From assembly GCF_024580145.1 (NCBI RefSeq), contig NZ_JANINI010000018.1, positions 2,676 through 57,081 on the forward strand: a DNA stretch of 54,406 nucleotides, in the 5' to 3' direction. The notes below the pieces were generated by a model. That model saw only the letters and a list, made by a program, of their open reading frames with translations. It did no database searches and had not been told where the DNA came from. The position numbers and the translations under genes were made by a program. Positions 4,036 to 40,119 of the stretch are shown in pieces. Position 1 is the stretch's first letter. Every line of letters starts with the position of its first letter. The stretch comes from Methyloversatilis sp. XJ19-49. GTDB lineage: Bacteria > Pseudomonadota > Gammaproteobacteria > Burkholderiales > Rhodocyclaceae.

Positions 4036-4053
4036 TGTAATGATTAGTTGACA
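4036..4053. promoter_or_regulatory. PpsR/CrtJ-type operator 1 (bchC -35)
   Basis: TGTAATGATTAGTTGACA: exact TGT-N12-ACA. Its right half TTGACA (4048-4053) is the -35 of the bchC promoter. Confidence 0.75.
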
Positions 4054-28805: not shown

Positions 28806-29720
28806 ATGGCCGGAAGAGCGCAGGAAGACGCCGGCAAGGCGCGCACGACAGGAGAGTACTGGTCCGACACGGATGCGCTTCAGCGAAGCCATCCGCAATC
28901 AGGCAATCACAACGGCGGGGAGCTGGTGTTCCCGGCCGACGACTGGATGGGTGATCTTGCCCGTACCATCGAAGCCGAGATCATTCCGCGCCTCATGCTC
29001 GCGCACGGCGGCGCCGACCCGTCGACACCGCAGGTCACCTGTGAAATGCGGGCGCCGTCGTCACCGGAAGTGGTCGAGTTCGCGAATCTGGTTCTCGCGC
29101 AGGACGCGCGCGTCGCGCGCACGTGGGTAGAGGCGGTACGCGCGCGAGGCGCGTCACCCGAAACGATTTTCCTTGAGTTGCTCGCGCCGGCCGCACGGCG
29201 ACTCGGGGAATTGTGGGAAGCGGATCTGTGTGATTTCACGCAGGTCACCCTCGGTCTGTGGCGGATCCAGCAGGTGGTGCACGAGCTGGGCCCGAGCTTT
29301 CGCTCGGACGCTCCGTTCGCGCCGAATGGCCGCCGGGTGTTACTGTCGGCCGCACCGGGTGACCAGCACACGCTGGGCCTGTTGATGGTCGGCGAATTTT
29401 TCCGCAACAGCGGCTGGGAAGTCTGTGCCGAAGCATCCGGCCGCAGCCTTGATCTGGTGCTGGCGGCGCAGAACGAGTGGTTTGATGTGCTGGGGTTCTC
29501 GGTCGGCAGCGAAGCGCGCATCGAACCGTTGAAGCGGCTGATCGAGGCAGTGCGTCAGGCGTCCCGCAATCGCGACCTCATCGTGATGGTGGGTGGCCCC
29601 ATCTTTGTCGAACATCCGGAGTGGGTGGAGCTTGTGGGTGCGGACGCGACCGCAAGTGACGCAAAAGACGCTGTGCGGCGCGCTGACGCCATGGTGCCGC
29701 TGCGATGTACGCAGGGCTGA
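28806..29720 (+). CDS. B12-binding photosynthesis regulator, AerR/PpaA family
   Basis: 304 residues. Helical B12-cap region (residues about 80-165, with ARRLGELWEADLCDFTQVTL) and a cobalamin-binding Rossmann-like domain with the ligand motif DQHTLG (D186-H188-G191), then VLGFSVGSE and VMVGGPIF. AerR/PpaA proteins are antirepressors that bind cobalamin and modulate CrtJ/PpsR. It lies directly before ppsR, as in other purple bacteria, and an upstream palindrome suggests feedback by PpsR. The first 45 residues or so are low-complexity and variable. Confidence 0.88.
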   Translation: MAGRAQEDAGKARTTGEYWSDTDALQRSHPQSGNHNGGELVFPADDWMGDLARTIEAEIIPRLMLAHGGADPSTPQVTCEMRAPSSPEVVEFANLVLAQDARVARTWVEAVRARGASPETIFLELLAPAARRLGELWEADLCDFTQVTLGLWRIQQVVHELGPSFRSDAPFAPNGRRVLLSAAPGDQHTLGLLMVGEFFRNSGWEVCAEASGRSLDLVLAAQNEWFDVLGFSVGSEARIEPLKRLIEAVRQASRNRDLIVMVGGPIFVEHPEWVELVGADATASDAKDAVRRADAMVPLRCTQG

Positions 29721-29805: not shown

Positions 29806-31230
29806 GTGAAGCCGTTCGAATCGCCCCTACTTTCTTTCGGAGGCGTCGATGCCAACTCCACAGCAAGACTCATCGCCGCCGCGTCGGATCTGGCGCTGGT
29901 GGTGGACAAGCAGGGCATCATCCGCGATGTAGCCTTCGGCAACGATGAACTGGTACCCGATGGGTACGAGGGTTGGGTCGGCCGACGCTGGACCGACATC
30001 GTGACCGTCGAAAGTCGCGCCAAGGTCGAGGCGCTGCTGATCGATGCTTCGGCCGAGGCCGCCCAGAAGTGGCGCCATGTGAATCACCCGGTGTCCGGCG
30101 GCATCGACATGCCGGTGCTGTATTCGGCCATCAAGGTCGGTCATGAAGGCCGGGTTGTCGCTTTCGGCCGCGATCTGCGTTCCCTGTCATCGCTGCAGCA
30201 ACGGCTGGTCGATGCGCAGCAGTCGATCGAGCGCGACTACGCCAAGCTGCGGCAACTGGAAACCCGCTATCGCCTGCTGTTCCAGATGACATCGGAAGCG
30301 GTACTCATTGTCGAGGCCGGCAGTCAGCGCGTCATGGAAGCCAATCCGGCAGCGCTCAGGCTGCTCGGTCCGTCTCCGAAGGGGCTTGTCGGTCGCACCT
30401 TTCCGGAAGGTTTCGACGAAGCGGGCATGCAGTCCGTTCAGGACCTTCTGGCCAGTGTCCGGGCGGCCGGTCGCGCTGACGATGTGCGCGTGCGACTCGC
30501 GGACGACGGGCGCGAACTGCAGGTTGCCGCATCGCTGGTCAGGCAGGACAACGCCGCGCTTTTCCTCGTGCGCCTGTCGCATCGTGCCGTCGAACACACG
30601 ACCTCGGGCCTTCATCAGGCGCTGCTGGACGTGATGGAGCACGTGCCGGACGGCTTTGTACTGACGGATGAATCGGGCCGCATCCTGACCGCCAACCACG
30701 CCTTTCTCGATCTGTCCCAGCTGGCGTCGGTCGAGCAGGCGCGTGGCGAGCTGCTCGAACGCTGGCTGGGTCGCCCCGGCGTTGACTTCAAGGTGTTGAT
30801 GGTCAACCTGCGTCAGCACGGCTCGGTCAGGCTTTTTTCCACCCTGGTTCGAGGTGAGCACGGTTCGGATGTGGAAGTCGAAATTTCTGCGGTGTCGGTC
30901 CCGCACGGCGAAACGCCTTGTCTCGGCTTCACGGTGCGTGGCATCAGCCGGCGGATTGAGGCCGATCCGCGACTGGGTCGCGAACTGCCCCGGTCGGTCG
31001 AACAGCTGACCGGGCTGGTCGGCCGCGTGTCGCTGAAGGAGCTGGTGCGCGAATCGACAGACCTGATCGAGAAACTGTGCATCGAGGCGGCGCTCGAACT
31101 GACGCACGACAACCGTGCTTCGGCGGCCGAAATGCTCGGCCTGAGTCGGCAAAGCCTGTACGTGAAACTGCGCCGCTACAGCATCGGCGACCTCAACGCC
31201 GAGCACGAAGACACCGAAACGGAAGACTAG
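29806..31230 (+). CDS. ppsR: Photosynthesis transcriptional repressor PpsR/CrtJ (complete)
   Basis: 474 residues. Redox-responsive repressor of bch, crt and puc-type promoters that binds TGT-N12-ACA. I chose the GTG at 29806 (MKPFESPLLSFGGVDANSTA) because family proteins start here; a TTG at 29743 would add 21 residues. Domains in order: N-terminal PAS (about 15-135), Q-linker helix (QQRLVDAQQSIERDY), PAS1 (about 165-270), PAS2 (about 285-395), C-terminal Fis-type helix-turn-helix (ASAAEMLGLSRQSLYVKLRR, near 438-457). The Cys in IEKLCIEAALEL (about C425) matches the redox-active Cys of CrtJ/PpsR. A truncated paralogue is encoded at 35714-36904. Confidence 0.95.
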   Translation: MKPFESPLLSFGGVDANSTARLIAAASDLALVVDKQGIIRDVAFGNDELVPDGYEGWVGRRWTDIVTVESRAKVEALLIDASAEAAQKWRHVNHPVSGGIDMPVLYSAIKVGHEGRVVAFGRDLRSLSSLQQRLVDAQQSIERDYAKLRQLETRYRLLFQMTSEAVLIVEAGSQRVMEANPAALRLLGPSPKGLVGRTFPEGFDEAGMQSVQDLLASVRAAGRADDVRVRLADDGRELQVAASLVRQDNAALFLVRLSHRAVEHTTSGLHQALLDVMEHVPDGFVLTDESGRILTANHAFLDLSQLASVEQARGELLERWLGRPGVDFKVLMVNLRQHGSVRLFSTLVRGEHGSDVEVEISAVSVPHGETPCLGFTVRGISRRIEADPRLGRELPRSVEQLTGLVGRVSLKELVRESTDLIEKLCIEAALELTHDNRASAAEMLGLSRQSLYVKLRRYSIGDLNAEHEDTETED

Positions 31231-33720: not shown

Positions 33721-34905
33721 ATGGCAAGCATGGAAAGTTTTGACGTGGTGGTGGTGGGCGGTGGACCCGCAGGTTCGACCGCAGCGACCGATCTCGCGCG
33801 ACTGGGTCACACGGTGCTGCTGCTCGATCGCGCCGGGCGCATCAAGCCCTGCGGCGGGGCGATTCCGCCGCGTCTGATCGAGGAGTTTGCAATTCCCGAC
33901 GAGCAACTCGTCGCCAAGGCGCGATCGGCAAGGATGATTTCGCCGTCAGGGCGCAAAGCCGACATGCCGATCGAGGGTGGGTTTGTCGGCATGGTCGATC
34001 GCGAGCAGTTCGACGAATACCTGCGTTGCCGCGCCAGTCTGGCCGGTGCGCATCGCCGCACAGGCACCTTCGACCGGGTCGAGCGCGATGACGACGGCCG
34101 GGCTGTCGTTCATTTCCGCAGCGATGAGGCAGAAGGCGGAACGGTGGGGGTGCGTGCCCGCGCCATCATCGGTGCCGACGGCGCATTGTCGGCCGTCGGG
34201 CGCCAGTGCGTGCCGGGTGCCGACGAGGTGCCGTGCGTGTACGCGTATCACGAAATCGTCCGTTCGCCGAAGCAGGACTTCGACGGCAGTCGATGCGACG
34301 TGTATTACCAGGGCCAGTTGTCACCCGATTTCTACGGCTGGGTCTTTCCGCATGGCGATACGACCAGTATCGGCACCGGCACGGCGACGAAGGGTTTTTC
34401 GATCCGTCAGGGCACCACTGCGCTGCGCGAGGCGGCCGGTCTCACCGGAGCGGAAACGATCCGCCGCGAAGGCGCTCCGATTCCGATGAAGCCGCTGCGC
34501 AAGTGGGACAACGGCCGCGATGTCGTGCTCGCCGGCGATGCCGCGGGTGTTGTCGCGCCAGCGTCCGGCGAGGGACTGTATTACGCGATGACCGGTGGCC
34601 GACTGGCGGCCGAAGCGGTCGACAGCTTTCTCGAAACAGGTGACGCGCGCGCGCTGGCAACGGCTCGCAAGCGATTCATGAAGGCACACGGCCGGGTGTT
34701 CATGATTCTCGGCATCATGCAGCGCTTCTGGTACGCCAGCGACAAGCGGCGCGAACGTTTCGTGAGCATCTGTCGCGATCCGGACGTGCAGCACCTGACG
34801 TGGCAGGCCTACATGCACAAGAAGCTGGTCAAGGCGAAGCCGATGGCGCATGCGCGCATCTTCTTCAAGGATCTGGCTCACCTGTGCGGCATCGTATCGC
34901 CGTGA
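33721..34905 (+). CDS. bchP: Geranylgeranyl reductase BchP
   Basis: 394 residues. NAD(P)H-dependent flavoprotein that reduces the geranylgeranyl tail of bacteriochlorophyll to phytyl. FAD-binding GGGPAGSTAA near residue 13, the family CGGAIPPRL segment near residue 44, and VLAGDAAGVVAPASGEGLYY near residue 270. Follows the transporter by 2 bp and overlaps tspO by four bases (GTGA). Confidence 0.95.
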   Translation: MASMESFDVVVVGGGPAGSTAATDLARLGHTVLLLDRAGRIKPCGGAIPPRLIEEFAIPDEQLVAKARSARMISPSGRKADMPIEGGFVGMVDREQFDEYLRCRASLAGAHRRTGTFDRVERDDDGRAVVHFRSDEAEGGTVGVRARAIIGADGALSAVGRQCVPGADEVPCVYAYHEIVRSPKQDFDGSRCDVYYQGQLSPDFYGWVFPHGDTTSIGTGTATKGFSIRQGTTALREAAGLTGAETIRREGAPIPMKPLRKWDNGRDVVLAGDAAGVVAPASGEGLYYAMTGGRLAAEAVDSFLETGDARALATARKRFMKAHGRVFMILGIMQRFWYASDKRRERFVSICRDPDVQHLTWQAYMHKKLVKAKPMAHARIFFKDLAHLCGIVSP

Positions 34906-35399
34906 ACACGATTGCCGCCCCGCGCTGGCCGCCGGTGGTTGCGGCCGCTGTGGCGGCATTGCTGGTGGCCGGTCTGGGCGCGGCTGCAACCGATCTGAGC
35001 CCGTGGTACGAAGCCTTGCGCAAGCCGGCCTGGCAGCCGCCTGCCTGGCTGTTCGGCCCAGCCTGGACGCTGATTTTCGGTCTTGCCGCGATAGCCGGTG
35101 TACTGGGATGGGTGCATGCACCCCATGCCAGCGCGCGGCAGCGGATGCTTTACCTGTTTGCGCTCAATGGCGGGCTCAACGTGTTGTGGAGCGCACTGTT
35201 CTTCCATTTCAAGCGGCCGGACTGGGCGCTGTATGAAGTCGGCCTGCTCTGGCTATCCGTGGCATCGCTGGCGCTGCATCTTCGAGCGTCATCACGCATG
35301 GCGGCCCGCCTCTTGTTGCCTTACCTCGCGTGGGTGGCATTCGCGGCAGCACTCAACTTTGCAGTGGTCGATCTGAATGCTCCATTCGTGGCAAATTGA
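34902..35399 (+). CDS. tspO: TspO/MBR family tryptophan-rich sensory protein
   Basis: 165 residues from the GTG at 34902 that overlaps the bchP stop. Five membrane helices; the family signature WYEALRKPAWQPPAWLFGPA is near residues 27-47, with NVLWSALFFHFKRPDWAL later. TspO binds porphyrins and in Rhodobacter sphaeroides dampens photosynthesis gene expression under oxygen. Coupling to bchP suggests it tracks pigment synthesis. Confidence 0.9.
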   Translation: MNTIAAPRWPPVVAAAVAALLVAGLGAAATDLSPWYEALRKPAWQPPAWLFGPAWTLIFGLAAIAGVLGWVHAPHASARQRMLYLFALNGGLNVLWSALFFHFKRPDWALYEVGLLWLSVASLALHLRASSRMAARLLLPYLAWVAFAAALNFAVVDLNAPFVAN

Positions 35400-35713
35400 C
35401 CGGTTCAATATCGATGTTTTCGATCGTTCATACACGCTGACATGTATTTTTTGATGAGTTACCGTAGCATGCGAGGATGTGGTGTGAAGAAGTAAGGGGC
35501 ACCGTCTTGTCGGACATGGCATCAGGCCGCCGGGCAGGCTGCGCAATGGCGCGCGCCGATGCGGAGTACGCTGATGCAGTGTGCGGGTGTTTCTGTGCAG
35601 ACTTCTGCAACCCGTCGATGTGACATGCAGTGCCCCCCGGTAGGCGCCGGGTTTTGCAATTCAAGCAGGTTCGCACGCTGTGCTTTGCGACTGCGTTCAT
35701 CCGGTTCTGTACT
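35400..35713 (+). other. 314-bp gene-free stretch before the second ppsR
   Basis: Contains the small repeat ATCGA/TCGAT at 35410-35424 and the terminator-like hairpin at 35636-35655. No TGT-N12-ACA site and no convincing -35/-10 pair were seen, so expression of the downstream light-sensing genes may not be under the PpsR of this cluster. Confidence 0.45.
35636..35655 (+). terminator. Short terminator-like hairpin
   Basis: CCCGG-TAGGCG-CCGGG followed by TTTT. It lies 236 bp past tspO and 59 bp before the second ppsR start, so it could end tspO transcripts or act as an attenuator. Confidence 0.35.
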
Positions 35714-36904
35714 ATGAACAAGCTACCGAACGACCCGGGCGATCTGAGCGCATTCTCGGAGGTCGCCCCCGAACTGGCCGACATGCTGGTGTCGGTCACC
35801 AGTGACATCGCACTCGTGCTCGACGACAAGGGTTTCATCCGCAGCGTGGCGCTGGGCGGTGCGGAACCCGTGAGCGCGACCGCCAGCGAGTGGCTGGGCC
35901 GCCAGCTGGTGGATACGGTGACGCGCGACACCCGTCGCAAGGTCGAAGAATTGCTGCGCGAAGCCAATGTGGCCGGCGTGTCGCGCACACGTCACATCAA
36001 TCATCCCTCCGCTGCGGGTGCCGACATTCCGGTTGCCTACACGGCTGTGCGGCTCGGCCAGTCCGGCCCGCTGCTGGTTGCCGGACGCGATCTGCGCGCG
36101 GTATCAGTCATGCAGCAACGTCTGGTCGACGCGCAGCAGTCGATGGAACGCGACTACTGGCGCATGCGCCAGGCGGAAACCCGCTATCGACTGCTGTTCC
36201 AGATCGCCACCGACGCGGTGCTGATCATCGACGCCGACACCTTGCACGTGATCGACGCCAACCGTGCCGCGGCGCGCATGTTCGGTTGCTCGGTGCAGGA
36301 CATGCCGGGCCGTCAGGCCACCGACGGCGTCGCGCCGGCGTCGCTCGGCGCGCTGGAAGAACTGCTCGGCACGGTACGCGTGTCGGGTCGCCCGGGCGAA
36401 GCCCATGTCACCCTTTCGGGACTCGGCGGCGCCATCCATGTATGGGTATCGCCGTTGCGCGGCGAAGGACAGAGCCTGCTGCTGCTGCGTGCCACGCCCG
36501 ATGGCAGTTCACCGCTGACCGCACCCGACGACCCGTTGCTGCCGGAGCTGATGCGCCTCACCCCGGACGCCATCGTATTCACCAACGAACAGGGCATGTT
36601 GCTGAGCATGAACGCTGCGTTCGCCGAACTGGTGAAGATTTCGGCTGAAAAGGGCATCCAGGGCCGGTCCCTCGGCGATTGGCTGGAACGCGACGGCGGT
36701 GGGTTCGCGAATCTTCTCGCCAGCGTATGCCGCTCAGGCGTAAAACGCATGGGTGCGCGCCTGTGGGACGAGAAGGGCATGTCCACGGATATTGAACTGT
36801 CGGCCGTCTTGATCCATAACGGAGATTCGAACAGTATCGGTTTCATCATTCGCGCGGTGCAGCCGCGCGGTCCGGGCGCACCGCACCCGGGCAGCGTGCA
36901 CTGA
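35714..36904 (+). CDS. PpsR paralogue lacking the DNA-binding domain (PpsR2-like, truncated)
   Basis: 396 residues from the ATG at 35714. Domains match PpsR in order: N-terminal PAS (SVTSDIALVLDDKGFIRSVA), Q-linker helix (MQQRLVDAQQSMERDYWRMR), PAS1 (YRLLFQIATDAVLIIDADTL), PAS2 (LMRLTPDAIVFTNEQGMLLS). The complete PpsR shares the segment QQRLVDAQQS and the RYRLLFQ that follows. The chain ends directly after PAS2 (FIIRAVQPRG...), with no helix-turn-helix and no redox Cys. Only 31 bp separate it from the phytochrome gene, so no DNA-binding remnant is left. It probably acts by protein contacts with the phytochrome or complete PpsR (inferred). The ribosome site is poor; a GTG at 35630 would add 28 residues. 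Confidence 0.88.
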   Translation: MNKLPNDPGDLSAFSEVAPELADMLVSVTSDIALVLDDKGFIRSVALGGAEPVSATASEWLGRQLVDTVTRDTRRKVEELLREANVAGVSRTRHINHPSAAGADIPVAYTAVRLGQSGPLLVAGRDLRAVSVMQQRLVDAQQSMERDYWRMRQAETRYRLLFQIATDAVLIIDADTLHVIDANRAAARMFGCSVQDMPGRQATDGVAPASLGALEELLGTVRVSGRPGEAHVTLSGLGGAIHVWVSPLRGEGQSLLLLRATPDGSSPLTAPDDPLLPELMRLTPDAIVFTNEQGMLLSMNAAFAELVKISAEKGIQGRSLGDWLERDGGGFANLLASVCRSGVKRMGARLWDEKGMSTDIELSAVLIHNGDSNSIGFIIRAVQPRGPGAPHPGSVH

Positions 36905-36935: not shown

Positions 36936-39125
36936 GTGTTGAACGATCCGACATTCAGCCCGGCTTTCGGCCAGGCTGACCTGACTAATTGCGAACGCGA
37001 GCTCATCCACCTGGCCGGATCGATCCAGCCGCACGGTGTGCTGCTGGTCGTCCGCCGGACGGATGGCATCATCGTCCAGGCAAGCGACAACGTTGCTCAC
37101 TGGCTGGGCGTGGCCCACGATCAGCTGCTCGGCCGCACGCTCAATGCGCTGGGCGGCTCGCTTGCCAGGCGTGTCGCCGAACTGGCGGGCACGCTTGTTG
37201 CGGATGAACTGACCGCCTTTCACTGCGATATCGGTGGCACGGATTCGACTGCCGGCACGGTGTTCGAGGGCATGGCGCATCTCGGTCAGTCGGACACGGT
37301 GATCGTCGAACTGGAATCGGCCGAGTCGGATACCGAATCGATCGATGAGGAAGCGCAGGCGTTGCTCGCGTCGTCGGTGCGGCGCTTCAGCGAAGCGCTC
37401 AGCATCGCCGCGCTGTCGGATGCCGTGGTTCAGTCGGTGCGCGCCCTGACCGGCTACGACCGCGTAATGGTGTATCGCTTCGACGACGAGGGCCACGGCG
37501 AAATTGTCGCCGAGGCACGCGAGGCAAAGCTAGATTCCCTGCTCGGCCATCGCTATCCGGCGACCGACATCCCGCAGCGCGCGCGCGAGCTTTATGTGCG
37601 CAACCGGGTACGTGTGCTCGTCGATGCCGGCTACCAGCCGGCAGCCGTGCTTCCGCGCCGCGTGCCGCACACCGGCGAAGAGCTCGACATGTCGAACTGC
37701 CATCTGCGCAGCATGTCACCGTTGCACATCCAGTATCTGCAGAACATGGGCGTGTCCGCCACCCTCGTGGTGTCACTCGTGCGCGAGGGCAAGCTGTGGG
37801 GATTGATTGCCTGTCATCACTATTCGCCCAGGCATATCCGCTACGCACAGCGTGCGGCGGTCGATCTGCTGGCGGAAGTGGTATCGACCCGGATCGCAGC
37901 GATCGAAAACTATGTGCGCACCCAGGTCGACGTACTGGTGCGCAGCCTTGAACTGCGGCTGATCGAAGCCACCTCGACCGAAGGCGACTGGCGCCTCGCC
38001 CTGGTGCGCAACCCGCGCACCTTGCTGCAACCGCTTGATGCGAGCGGCGCCGCACTGTTCCACGAAGGTGAGTTGCTGACCGTGGGCGAGGTGCCGTCGA
38101 CCTTCGAACTGCGTGCGCTGTCGCGCTGGGTCGCGAGCGAAATGCGGCAGTCGCTGTTCAGTTGTGCGTCGGTTGCACGCGCGCATCCGCCGCTGGCCTC
38201 GCTGACACCGGTCGTTTGCGGCGTGCTGGCGATCGAACTGTCCTCTTCGGGGCAGGACTTCCTGATGTGGTTCCGGCGCGAACAATCCGCCACCATCATC
38301 TGGGCGGGCGATCCGGCCAAACCCGTGGTCGACAACGACCCGCTCACGCTTTCGCCACGCCGCTCGTTTGCTGCCTGGTCGGAAATCGTGCGCGGTACGG
38401 GCGCGTCCTGGAGCCGCGCCGATCTCGCGCTCGCGCGCGCCATCGGTACCACACTGCGCGACGTCATCCTGCAGACGCAGGCCGTGAGCCTGCTGATCGC
38501 GCAGCATCAGCTCGATCGCTTCCGCGGTGCCGTCGAAACGTCGGACGAGCCGGTGCTGGTGGCGAATGCGCAGGGGCGCGTGTTGTTCCAGAGCGTCGCG
38601 TTCGCGGCGCTGTTCAACACCTCACCGCCTCGCGTACGCGCACTCGACGACATGTGCGACCTGTTCGTCGTACCGGCGCAGGTGCGCGAAGTGATCGGCA
38701 ATCTCATCCGCGAGCGCGATTCCTGGCGTGGCGAGTGGCAACTGCGGGCCGGCGCCGGGCAGACCGTGGCGCTGGGGGTCAGGGCAGATACGATTCCAGG
38801 TGCCGGTGGCTCGGTACTGGGCTACATCATCATCTTCACCGACCTGACCGATACCAAGCGCACGGAAGCCGCGCGGCGCCATCTCGAACAGTCGCTCAGC
38901 GAAGCAGGACGTGCCGGCATCGGTCTGGATCCGGCGATGCCGCTGCGACGCGAACCTGACGAAGTGGTGGGCGCCATACTTGCCAACGCCAGTGTGGCTG
39001 CAATGGAGCTGACCGACACCGCCGCTTCGATTCCCGTGGCGACGCTCATCGAGGAACTGGAAGCTTCCGCGACCCGCGCCGCCGCGCTGTACGGCAAGTT
39101 GCGCGCCTTCACACGGGAGCACTGA
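36936..39125 (+). CDS. bphP: Bacteriophytochrome without histidine kinase (BphP)
   Basis: 729 residues with a GTG start at 36936 (TTG at 36939 also possible). Red/far-red photoreceptor that binds biliverdin. The biliverdin-attaching Cys is C19 in LTNCERELIH; SIQPHGVLLV follows. The GAF domain has HRYPATDIPQRARELY and LRSMSPLHIQYLQNMGVSAT; the PHY tongue motif PRRSF is at LSPRRSFAAWSEIV. A further PAS domain (LDRFRGAVETSDEPVLVANA onward) leads to a helical tail ending GKLRAFTREH. There is no H-box or ATPase domain. Length and layout match BphP1 of Rhodopseudomonas and BrBphP of Bradyrhizobium, which bind PpsR2. Confidence 0.93.
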   Translation: MLNDPTFSPAFGQADLTNCERELIHLAGSIQPHGVLLVVRRTDGIIVQASDNVAHWLGVAHDQLLGRTLNALGGSLARRVAELAGTLVADELTAFHCDIGGTDSTAGTVFEGMAHLGQSDTVIVELESAESDTESIDEEAQALLASSVRRFSEALSIAALSDAVVQSVRALTGYDRVMVYRFDDEGHGEIVAEAREAKLDSLLGHRYPATDIPQRARELYVRNRVRVLVDAGYQPAAVLPRRVPHTGEELDMSNCHLRSMSPLHIQYLQNMGVSATLVVSLVREGKLWGLIACHHYSPRHIRYAQRAAVDLLAEVVSTRIAAIENYVRTQVDVLVRSLELRLIEATSTEGDWRLALVRNPRTLLQPLDASGAALFHEGELLTVGEVPSTFELRALSRWVASEMRQSLFSCASVARAHPPLASLTPVVCGVLAIELSSSGQDFLMWFRREQSATIIWAGDPAKPVVDNDPLTLSPRRSFAAWSEIVRGTGASWSRADLALARAIGTTLRDVILQTQAVSLLIAQHQLDRFRGAVETSDEPVLVANAQGRVLFQSVAFAALFNTSPPRVRALDDMCDLFVVPAQVREVIGNLIRERDSWRGEWQLRAGAGQTVALGVRADTIPGAGGSVLGYIIIFTDLTDTKRTEAARRHLEQSLSEAGRAGIGLDPAMPLRREPDEVVGAILANASVAAMELTDTAASIPVATLIEELEASATRAAALYGKLRAFTREH

Positions 39126-39148: not shown

Positions 39149-39799
39149 TCAGCCGGGCAGCGTTGCAGCCAGTTCGTCGAACATCGCGATGTGCCGCCGA
39201 AACCCGGCTTGCGCCTCGGCCACCAGTGCATCGACCCGTGCCGCATCCTGCGGCAGCGCGTCGAGTCCGTCGCGGTAGCGACGGATCAGACTGCCCACTT
39301 CGCCGTCGAACGCGTAGAAGCGCGTACCCCGGCCATCCTGCAACTGCAGTGCTCCGGACACTACACGCCCGAGCACCTGACCGCCGTGCAGATCACCCAG
39401 ATGACGAACGTAGGAGTGTGCGGCGAGCAGTGCCGGCTGTTCCACCGACAACGCTTTCAGGCGGGCGGCGTATTCGACCGCCGCAGCGGTGGGCATGATG
39501 TCGTCTGACCAGCAGCTGCCATGCAGCGCGCACAGGTCGTCGTGCAGTGCCTTGGTGCGCGGCAGTTCCGGCAGGCACAGCGGCGCGATGTCCGGTCGTC
39601 GGGCATGCAGCGCCAGCCCGCTTTCGAGTGCGTCGTACAGCAGGTGAAGGCTGCGCAACAGGCTGCAATAGGCGTGTGTCTCGATGCGGCCCTGCAGCAG
39701 CCGGGCCATCAGGCCGCTGCGTTCGGCGTGCCGATGCAGCGGTGCGGTATCGGTACGCAATCGAACTGCGAGACCGGCGGTGACAGAGGCTCCATGCAT
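39149..39799 (-). CDS. bphO: Haem oxygenase, biliverdin-producing (BphO)
   Basis: 216 residues from the ATG at 39799. Opens haem to biliverdin, the bacteriophytochrome chromophore. The proximal His is H22 in TAPLHRHAERSGLM; the distal-helix segment YVRHLGDLHGGQVLGRVVSG supplies the conserved glycines. It is convergent with bphP, with only 23 bp between their stops. An open frame extends further upstream (to about 40105) without family similarity, so the internal ATG is preferred. Confidence 0.9.
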   Translation of the reverse strand: MHGASVTAGLAVRLRTDTAPLHRHAERSGLMARLLQGRIETHAYCSLLRSLHLLYDALESGLALHARRPDIAPLCLPELPRTKALHDDLCALHGSCWSDDIMPTAAAVEYAARLKALSVEQPALLAAHSYVRHLGDLHGGQVLGRVVSGALQLQDGRGTRFYAFDGEVGSLIRRYRDGLDALPQDAARVDALVAEAQAGFRRHIAMFDELAATLPG

Positions 39800-39843
39800 C
39801 CGGAAATGATAACGTGCGCGGCCGGCACAGTTGCGGAGGAAAA

Positions 39844-40119
39844 ATGGCGGAGTGGATGTCCGATGGACGATTGATCGATCTGATCGTGGTGCTCGTGCTG
39901 ATCGAGTGGCTGGCGTTCGCCGCCTGGCATCGTCGCAGCGGGAAGGGCTTGTCGGGCGGAAAGCTGCTGCCCAATCTCGCAGCCGGGCTGTGCCTGATGC
40001 TGGCGCTGCGCGCGGCATTGACCGACGCATCGTGGATGTGGGTTGCGCTGTTCGTCGCGCTGTCGGGCGTCGCGCATGTCGCCGATCTGTGGTGCCGCTG
40101 GCCACGCCGGCCGGTCTGA
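39844..40119 (+). CDS. Small three-helix membrane protein, unknown
   Basis: 91 residues. The ATG at 39844 has GGAGGA just upstream. Hydrophobic stretches: LIDLIVVLVLIEWLAFAAW (about 10-28), LLPNLAAGLCLMLALRAAL (about 41-59), WMWVALFVALSGVAHVADLW (about 64-83). Divergent from bphO with 44 bp between starts, so the two may share a control region. I do not recognise the family. Confidence 0.6.
   Translation: MAEWMSDGRLIDLIVVLVLIEWLAFAAWHRRSGKGLSGGKLLPNLAAGLCLMLALRAALTDASWMWVALFVALSGVAHVADLWCRWPRRPV

Follow-up and report, generated by a model that had tools for sequence, protein, structure and literature searches.

A conserved PpsR paralogue without a DNA-binding domain adjoins a PAS9-HOS bacteriophytochrome gene in Methyloversatilis

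PpsR/CrtJ proteins (TIGR02040) are repressors of photosynthesis genes in which an N-PAS domain, a Q-linker, PAS1 and PAS2 are followed by a helix-turn-helix (HTH) with a redox Cys region. According to one report (PMC3949515), the Q-linker of R. sphaeroides PpsR (Gln134 and Glu138) is the docking site both of PAS2 (Arg339 and Leu340) and of AppA, and PpsR-ΔHTH still forms dimers and tetramers. The role proposed for AppA (BLUF), PpaA/AerR (B12) and LdaP (LOV) is to lift PpsR repression through protein contacts in response to light; they are different proteins with chromophores of their own, and none of them is known to be a PpsR paralogue (PMC10890935 for LdaP).

In Rhodopseudomonas and Bradyrhizobium, a second PpsR (PpsR2) is encoded beside a type-3 PAS9-HOS phytochrome, BphP1, and a near-infrared optogenetic pair descends from this couple. 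A SAXS model places the BphP HOS on the PpsR2 HTH, with caution expressed by its authors (PMC6899989). QPAS1, an engineered R. palustris PpsR2 fragment that is HTH-free, binds BphP1 (PMC9120076 and PMC13058837). Because the SAXS model uses the HTH yet QPAS1 binds without it, the site at which HOS grips PpsR2 is unsettled. None of the literature matches listed (titles and abstract openings, with few subscription papers) dealt with a natural HTH-less PpsR.

Here we describe such a protein from Methyloversatilis. Its gene is part of a photosynthesis gene cluster; it is flanked by a TspO-family gene and bphP, and the complete ppsR lies 4.5 kb upstream. These genes fall within a window of 54,406 nucleotides, which is the whole stretch of DNA that was analysed. 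The relevant features of the window are as follows.

28806..29720, + strand: B12-binding protein (Pfam B12-binding), which from its position we take to be AerR/PpaA-like, a known kind of PpsR antirepressor
29806..31230, + strand: complete, HTH-bearing PpsR of 474 aa, presumed to be the target (Pfam, TIGR02040, BLASTP)
34800-35399, + strand: TspO/MBR-family gene (PF03073, 137 bits), the immediate upstream neighbour of the paralogue
35714..36904, + strand: HTH-less PpsR paralogue of 396 aa (ORF from ATG to TGA; TIGR02040 and BLASTP)
35762..36097, + strand: N-PAS of the paralogue, residues 17-128 (invariant-column comparison)
36098..36193, + strand: Q-linker helix of the paralogue, residues 129-160 (AF2 model, helix 127-164)
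36194..36499, + strand: PAS1 of the paralogue, residues 161-262 (Pfam and AF2 model)
36539..36868, + strand: PAS2 of the paralogue, residues 276-385, more relaxed than in the complete PpsR
36936..39125, + strand: bphP, type-3 bacteriophytochrome PAS-GAF-PHY-PAS9-HOS, 729 aa (Pfam, alignment)
38964..39110, + strand: BphP residues 677-725, the two-helix output (HOS) segment (placed by alignment with the BphP tails of R. palustris at L104 and L108)
39149..39904, - strand: heme oxygenase (Pfam), convergent with bphP, start codon tentative

The paralogue aligned with the 474-aa PpsR over 370 aa with one gap (BLASTP, 38% identity, 61% positives, E 1e-85). It scored 286.5 bits against TIGR02040 (PpsR-CrtJ; curated cut-off, 275.4), covering positions 1-366 of 442, versus 520.9 bits and positions 1-442 for the complete protein. 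N-PAS, Q-linker, PAS1 and PAS2 follow one another in this order, with nothing beyond PAS2, an architecture and a descent that it shares with PpsR/CrtJ. The C-terminal Fis-type HTH, found in the complete PpsR as HTH_8 (PF02954, 43 bits), had no Pfam match in the paralogue, and the redox Cys is likewise missing because it sits in the lost HTH part; Cys residues do occur elsewhere in the protein. No HTH remnant was seen 3' of the gene in the three forward frames (ten genus loci by eye, nine by HMM), and bphP begins with a GTG at 36936, 31 bp past the paralogue stop. The preliminary description had reported a PpsR paralogue that stops right after PAS2, without HTH, redox Cys or decayed remnant, and was accurate in these respects.

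Pfam assigned the paralogue four PAS families and one diguanylate-cyclase-like sensor family, and it detected neither a BLUF nor a B12-binding domain; LOV domains share the PAS fold, and Pfam did not tell them apart here. Since the protein exceeds the TIGR02040 cut-off, automatic annotation would name it a transcriptional regulator. Given the lost HTH, it cannot be presumed to bind DNA and is probably not a transcriptional regulator in the usual sense. A likeness to artificially truncated PpsR2 variants had also been proposed, and laboratory counterparts do exist; the closest is RsPpsR-ΔHTH (PDB 4hh2) and not QPAS1, which also lacks the N-PAS and PAS2 that the paralogue retains.

The neighbouring phytochrome, rightly recognized in the preliminary description, is a PAS9-HOS BphP with no histidine kinase domain in Pfam; among solved structures, R. 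palustris BphP1 (4gw9) is the closest to it. The convergent heme oxygenase likely supplies its biliverdin chromophore. Within the genus, HOS is the best-kept part of BphP (80% mean identity versus 45% for PAS9 and 68% for PAS-GAF and PHY); across the wider paralogue clade described below (clade 1) it stands at 56%, slightly below the core at 60-64%.

The paralogue was present in 10/13 Methyloversatilis genomes (own included), all ten of which also encode BphP; the other three (G005, G006 and G008) lack the paralogue, BphP and canonical PpsR alike. Every one of the ten copies has the same C-terminal end, Val/Met-His-stop, directly 5' of bphP, at 59-99% identity. Because the ten loci end alike, a sequencing error is excluded for the paralogue, and with it a frameshift near the gene end that would restore an HTH, the objection foreseen in the preliminary description. 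In six pairs from four species, pN/pS was 0.19-0.52 for the paralogue, similar to the complete ppsR (0.16-0.44) and bphP (0.23-0.55). The paralogue is thus under purifying selection in Methyloversatilis, and the claim that its form is natural holds. One copy, in the one-contig genome G012, is 98% identical and carries a TAG at codon 195 (L005:2083-2085), with bphP and ppsR open; the gene is therefore dispensable at least in G012. This genome can be regarded as a natural knock-out of the paralogue.

We collected loci from other genera by a contig search with two peptide patterns (MERDYWR and VAPELADM), keeping 80/157 confirmed stretches, many of them metagenome-assembled genomes (MAGs); the set is biased because it was drawn by the search peptides. 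Within it, the closest relatives of the paralogue in other genera were second PpsRs, most of them adjoining a BphP. On most of these stretches we also found a normal PpsR with an intact HTH motif; within the stretches read, none was found at L043, L050 and L052. The preliminary description had suggested looking for PpsRs that end after PAS2 beside bphP, and second copies truncated in the same way were found in the Nevskia group (L059, L085, L093, L100 and L107), with Ser-Ile/Val-His likewise at the C-terminus, and in three Burkholderiales MAGs (L057, L060 and L065).

Other second copies have a divergent HTH, among them those of Rubrivivax albus, Hydrogenophaga, Ramlibacter, Polaromonas, Piscinibacter and others. 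With our own HTH model, intact copies scored at least 79 bits and the other loci copies at most 56 bits, a gap that is partly built in because the training sequences were chosen for the motif [LI]S[RK]Q[ST]L[YF]. The divergent class is mixed. When nine second copies from outside Methyloversatilis were run through Pfam, HTH_8 still passed the cut-off in three (L050, L052 and L087), fell below it in four (L061, L069, L088 and L097) and had no match in two (L091 and the fully HTH-less Nevskia copy L107). A divergent HTH does not imply loss of DNA binding. A frame-by-frame search found no HTH remnant in 17/18 rows first classed as HTH-less. The remaining one, the Rhodoferax MAG L042, has a divergent HTH of 25.5 bits that lies in a different frame, and was reclassed as divergent, as which it is counted in the 64-row tree below; the 135-row tree still counts it as HTH-less. 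In this MAG the second ppsR and bphP are each frameshifted (L042:6633-10345), which may reflect assembly errors.

PpsR trees were built on the PAS region only. The 135-row tree omitted L003, L005 (nonsense), L064 and L078 (both cut off by the contig end), as well as identical sequences and any hits below 250 bits; the 64-row tree additionally omitted 7 near-copies of second PpsRs and 64/102 intact rows. In the latter, the Methyloversatilis paralogue grouped with Nevskia and the divergent forms in clade 1 (23 rows, support 100/100), outside the R. palustris PpsR2 clade. Clade 2 (5 rows, 100/100) joined two of the three Burkholderiales MAGs and L069 to R. palustris PpsR2; the third MAG, a near-copy, also fell with R. 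palustris PpsR2 in the 135-row tree. As had been noted earlier, Rhodopseudomonas PpsR2 itself has an HTH, which is intact at both loci (L104 and L108). In the beta/gammaproteobacterial second-PpsR clade, which is mostly phytochrome-linked, the HTH was absent or divergent in 28/28 tree rows. A tree of 21 BphP rows split in the same way as the paralogue tree.

A single clade for all HTH-less copies was rejected (AU p 1e-77), and one clade of all second copies plus PpsR2 was weakly rejected (AU p 0.017), the tested groups having been named after the tree was seen. Rejection of a single HTH-less clade means that the HTH was lost at least twice, and the trees show independent loss in two lineages, one of them beside Rhodopseudomonas PpsR2. 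Absence of the HTH is thus a natural and conserved state with more than one origin among relatives. The preliminary description had called the paralogue natural; natural and conserved it is, and it is no isolated case, belonging to one of two second-PpsR lineages with an HTH that is missing or divergent. Because the loss is conserved and occurred more than once, the paralogue probably works by binding other proteins. Gemmatimonadota PpsRs with an intact HTH (L039-L041, L044-L063 and others) were the nearest outgroup of clade 1. This position hints at a possible transfer of a PpsR lineage between phyla, with a weak joining branch to L039/L041 (86/72).

In a sample of 399 genomes from the order (own included, drawn evenly, with some overlap with the contig-search loci), 49 had a PpsR; 10 of the 49 had two, and in each case a BphP adjoined the second. 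The second copy lacked the HTH in five (G000, G177, G216, G398 and G311) and had a divergent one in the other five (G088, G340, G321, G379 and G443). G088 and G340 were judged via loci L073 and L069, taken as the same genomes from identical scores of the neighbouring PpsR; the G443 copy reaches the model end with an HTH of 59 bits, versus at least 79 for copies called intact. Of the genomes that hold a second PpsR, our own among them, 10/10 had a PAS9-HOS BphP, versus 1/39 of those with one (Fisher 1e-9, counting genomes as independent despite kinship), and second PpsRs are therefore tightly associated with PAS9-HOS phytochromes. The sole pairing exception, G239 (L179), has a single PpsR, which lies about 23 kb from its type-3-like BphP; the 7 kb around that BphP contain none. 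A phylum sample (398 genomes, drawn evenly, own added, again with some overlap with the contig-search loci) yielded PpsR in 31; the 27 outside the order had one copy each, all reaching the model end. A class-wide alignment search of 369 genomes gave matches in 5, with an HTH-less copy in our own genome only.

In six second-PpsR genomes of the loci set (L053, L085, L088, L092, L097 and L098), all MAGs and possibly incomplete, no BphP was found at E<=1e-40. The second ppsR stands tail to tail with the canonical ppsR in all but L085, which holds the only HTH-less copy of the six; the other five keep part of a divergent HTH. Four of these genomes (L088, L092, L097 and L098, Comamonadaceae-type) showed second-copy dN/dS of 0.04-0.10, like canonical PpsR (0.05-0.11). 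HTH_8 scored about 20 bits (cut-off, 22) in the two BphP-less copies run through Pfam, and PAS2 was not relaxed in the low-dN/dS copies (98/110 v 105/110 invariant columns). As part of a divergent HTH is kept, these four copies are not clean proof for the HTH-less forms. The phytochrome-less second copies point to a role on PpsR itself, one that would be read with the partly kept HTH and unrelaxed PAS2 in mind.

Comparing invariant columns domain by domain, we found PAS2 relaxed in all three HTH-less groups relative to canonical PpsR: 36/110 v 64/110 in Methyloversatilis (four species), 39/109 v 81/110 in the Nevskia group and 60/108 v 105/110 in clade 2. The Q-linker was not relaxed, with no significant difference in Methyloversatilis (29/32 v 27/32), Nevskia (27/32 v 31/32) or clade 2 (30/32 v 32/32), and the equivalents of RsPpsR Gln134 and Glu138 are kept in 32/33 and 33/33 second copies. 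N-PAS was better kept than in canonical PpsR only in Methyloversatilis (80/112 v 48/112, four species); it was similar in clade 2 (95/103 v 108/112) and more relaxed in the Nevskia group (69/112 v 87/112), as was PAS1 there (55/102 v 70/102). HTH-less copies had higher dN/dS than canonical ones in the Nevskia group (0.28-0.48 v 0.12-0.24) and in clade 2 (0.15-0.24 v 0.04-0.06), and values stayed well below 1 in every HTH-less group. At the positions of RsArg339/Leu340 in PAS2, canonical PpsRs have R in 94/102 and L or M in 101/102. The pair is kept in the Methyloversatilis paralogue (R 9/9, L or M 8/9); the divergent clade-1 copies have R in 4/14 and L in 3/14, Nevskia R in 1/5 and L/M in 0/5, and clade 2 R in 5/5 and L/M in 0/5. 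Ordinary mixed tetramers may therefore not form in most second copies outside Methyloversatilis.

The reading that we prefer, and to which we give an even chance, is that the paralogue is a selected, BphP-linked PpsR partner without DNA binding that would act on canonical PpsR through N-PAS, Q-linker and PAS1. The paralogue would dimerise through this region and pair with, or dock on, canonical PpsR, yielding mixed oligomers that bind DNA poorly. BphP HOS would bind its Q-linker/PAS1 in one light state and so set the free share of paralogue able to act on PpsR. No sign is predicted for the far-red effect, as release and capture of the paralogue both fit. Such a role would resemble that of AppA, PpaA/AerR and LdaP. 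Eukaryotic Id proteins, HLH proteins without the basic region, are likewise partners without a DNA-binding part; they are unrelated to the paralogue, and the shared logic of a subunit that spoils DNA binding is an analogy only. We count in favour of this reading the shared truncation and purifying selection in the genus, the independent HTH losses, the association of second PpsRs with PAS9-HOS phytochromes, the relaxed PAS2, the unrelaxed Q-linker with its kept Gln134/Glu138, the oligomers still formed by R. sphaeroides PpsR-ΔHTH and the Q-linker docking of AppA, the binding of BphP1 by HTH-free QPAS1, and the low dN/dS of second copies in four genomes with no BphP found. Against it we count the faster evolution of HTH-less copies in the Nevskia group and clade 2, an N-PAS that is better kept only in Methyloversatilis, the PAS2 contact pair lost from most other second copies, the partly kept HTH of the four low-dN/dS copies, the nonsense codon of G012 and, as detailed below, the lack of an operator-like site upstream of the gene.

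In a first rival reading the paralogue would be a dedicated adaptor or chaperone that binds BphP alone, stabilising it or relaying its signal to another target, and never PpsR; the preliminary description had named both an anti-repressor and a phytochrome adaptor as candidate roles. The 31-bp gap to bphP, the BphP that accompanies every one of the ten second copies in the order sample (own genome included) and the matching splits of the two trees all suit an adaptor; second PpsRs that persist where no BphP was detected, four of them at low dN/dS, do not, at least in those genomes, even if L085 is the only HTH-less one among them. We consider an adaptor unlikely, though a serious contender. Alternatively, mixed oligomers might aid DNA binding, the paralogue acting as a co-repressor or structural subunit that, for example, completes octamers. 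The octamer is reported to matter in PpsR target binding, with crystal contacts through the N-domain, Q-linker and PAS1 (PMC3949515), and Methyloversatilis retains the PAS2 contact residues. The relaxation of PAS2 in all three HTH-less groups and the loss of those residues in the Nevskia group and most divergent copies nevertheless make a co-repressor quite unlikely.

That the gene is instead a former PpsR2 decaying toward loss could explain the absent HTH, the relaxed PAS2, the G012 nonsense copy and the faster evolution in the Nevskia group and clade 2. A common end in 10/10 loci down to 59% identity, pN/pS like that of the neighbouring genes, a nearly invariant Q-linker, dN/dS well below 1 in every HTH-less group and the recurrence of the HTH-less state in distant groups together render decay improbable. 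An HTH concealed by a sequencing or assembly error has a precedent at one other locus, L042, with its divergent HTH behind a frameshift; at the paralogue it has no support, and the agreement of ten genomes and the empty forward frames refute it as good as completely.

A broader proposal, tentative and somewhat more apt to fail than to hold, is that phytochrome signalling in beta- and gammaproteobacterial phototrophs was repeatedly rewired, so that a decoy PpsR under light control and without a DNA-binding part took the place of the light-controlled repressor PpsR2; the decoy would be gated by HOS at the Q-linker/PAS1 and would spoil canonical PpsR by mixed assembly. If the decoy proposal is true, HOS would bind the Q-linker/PAS1 region and not the HTH, contrary to the published SAXS model. 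Natural HTH-less partners beside HOS-bearing phytochromes make the question of the HOS site testable, and HTH-less PpsRs may offer new compact light-controlled pairs. With divergent-HTH forms alongside, they also suggest a route from a repressor paralogue to a regulator that does not bind DNA.

The operator-like motif TGT-N12-ACA occurred 12 times in the window versus about 13 expected by chance (six fixed bases, our own estimate) and was absent from the 315 nt upstream of the paralogue. Two occurrences lie inside its coding part, at 35790 and 35979, and we give them no weight. PpsR-type sites were seen at 1850-1867 and 4036-4053, the one at 1850 (TGTAATGTCTACATTACA) being near-palindromic, with the window total at chance level. 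About 240-255 nt upstream of the paralogue, the 14-mer TTRCCGTAGCATGC (35459-35472, + strand) occurs once in the window at <=2 mismatches, a result equalled in 39/100 shuffles. The 14-mer is kept in six Methyloversatilis sequences (the window, L033, L034, L036, L037 and L038), in intergenic DNA that is otherwise diverged.
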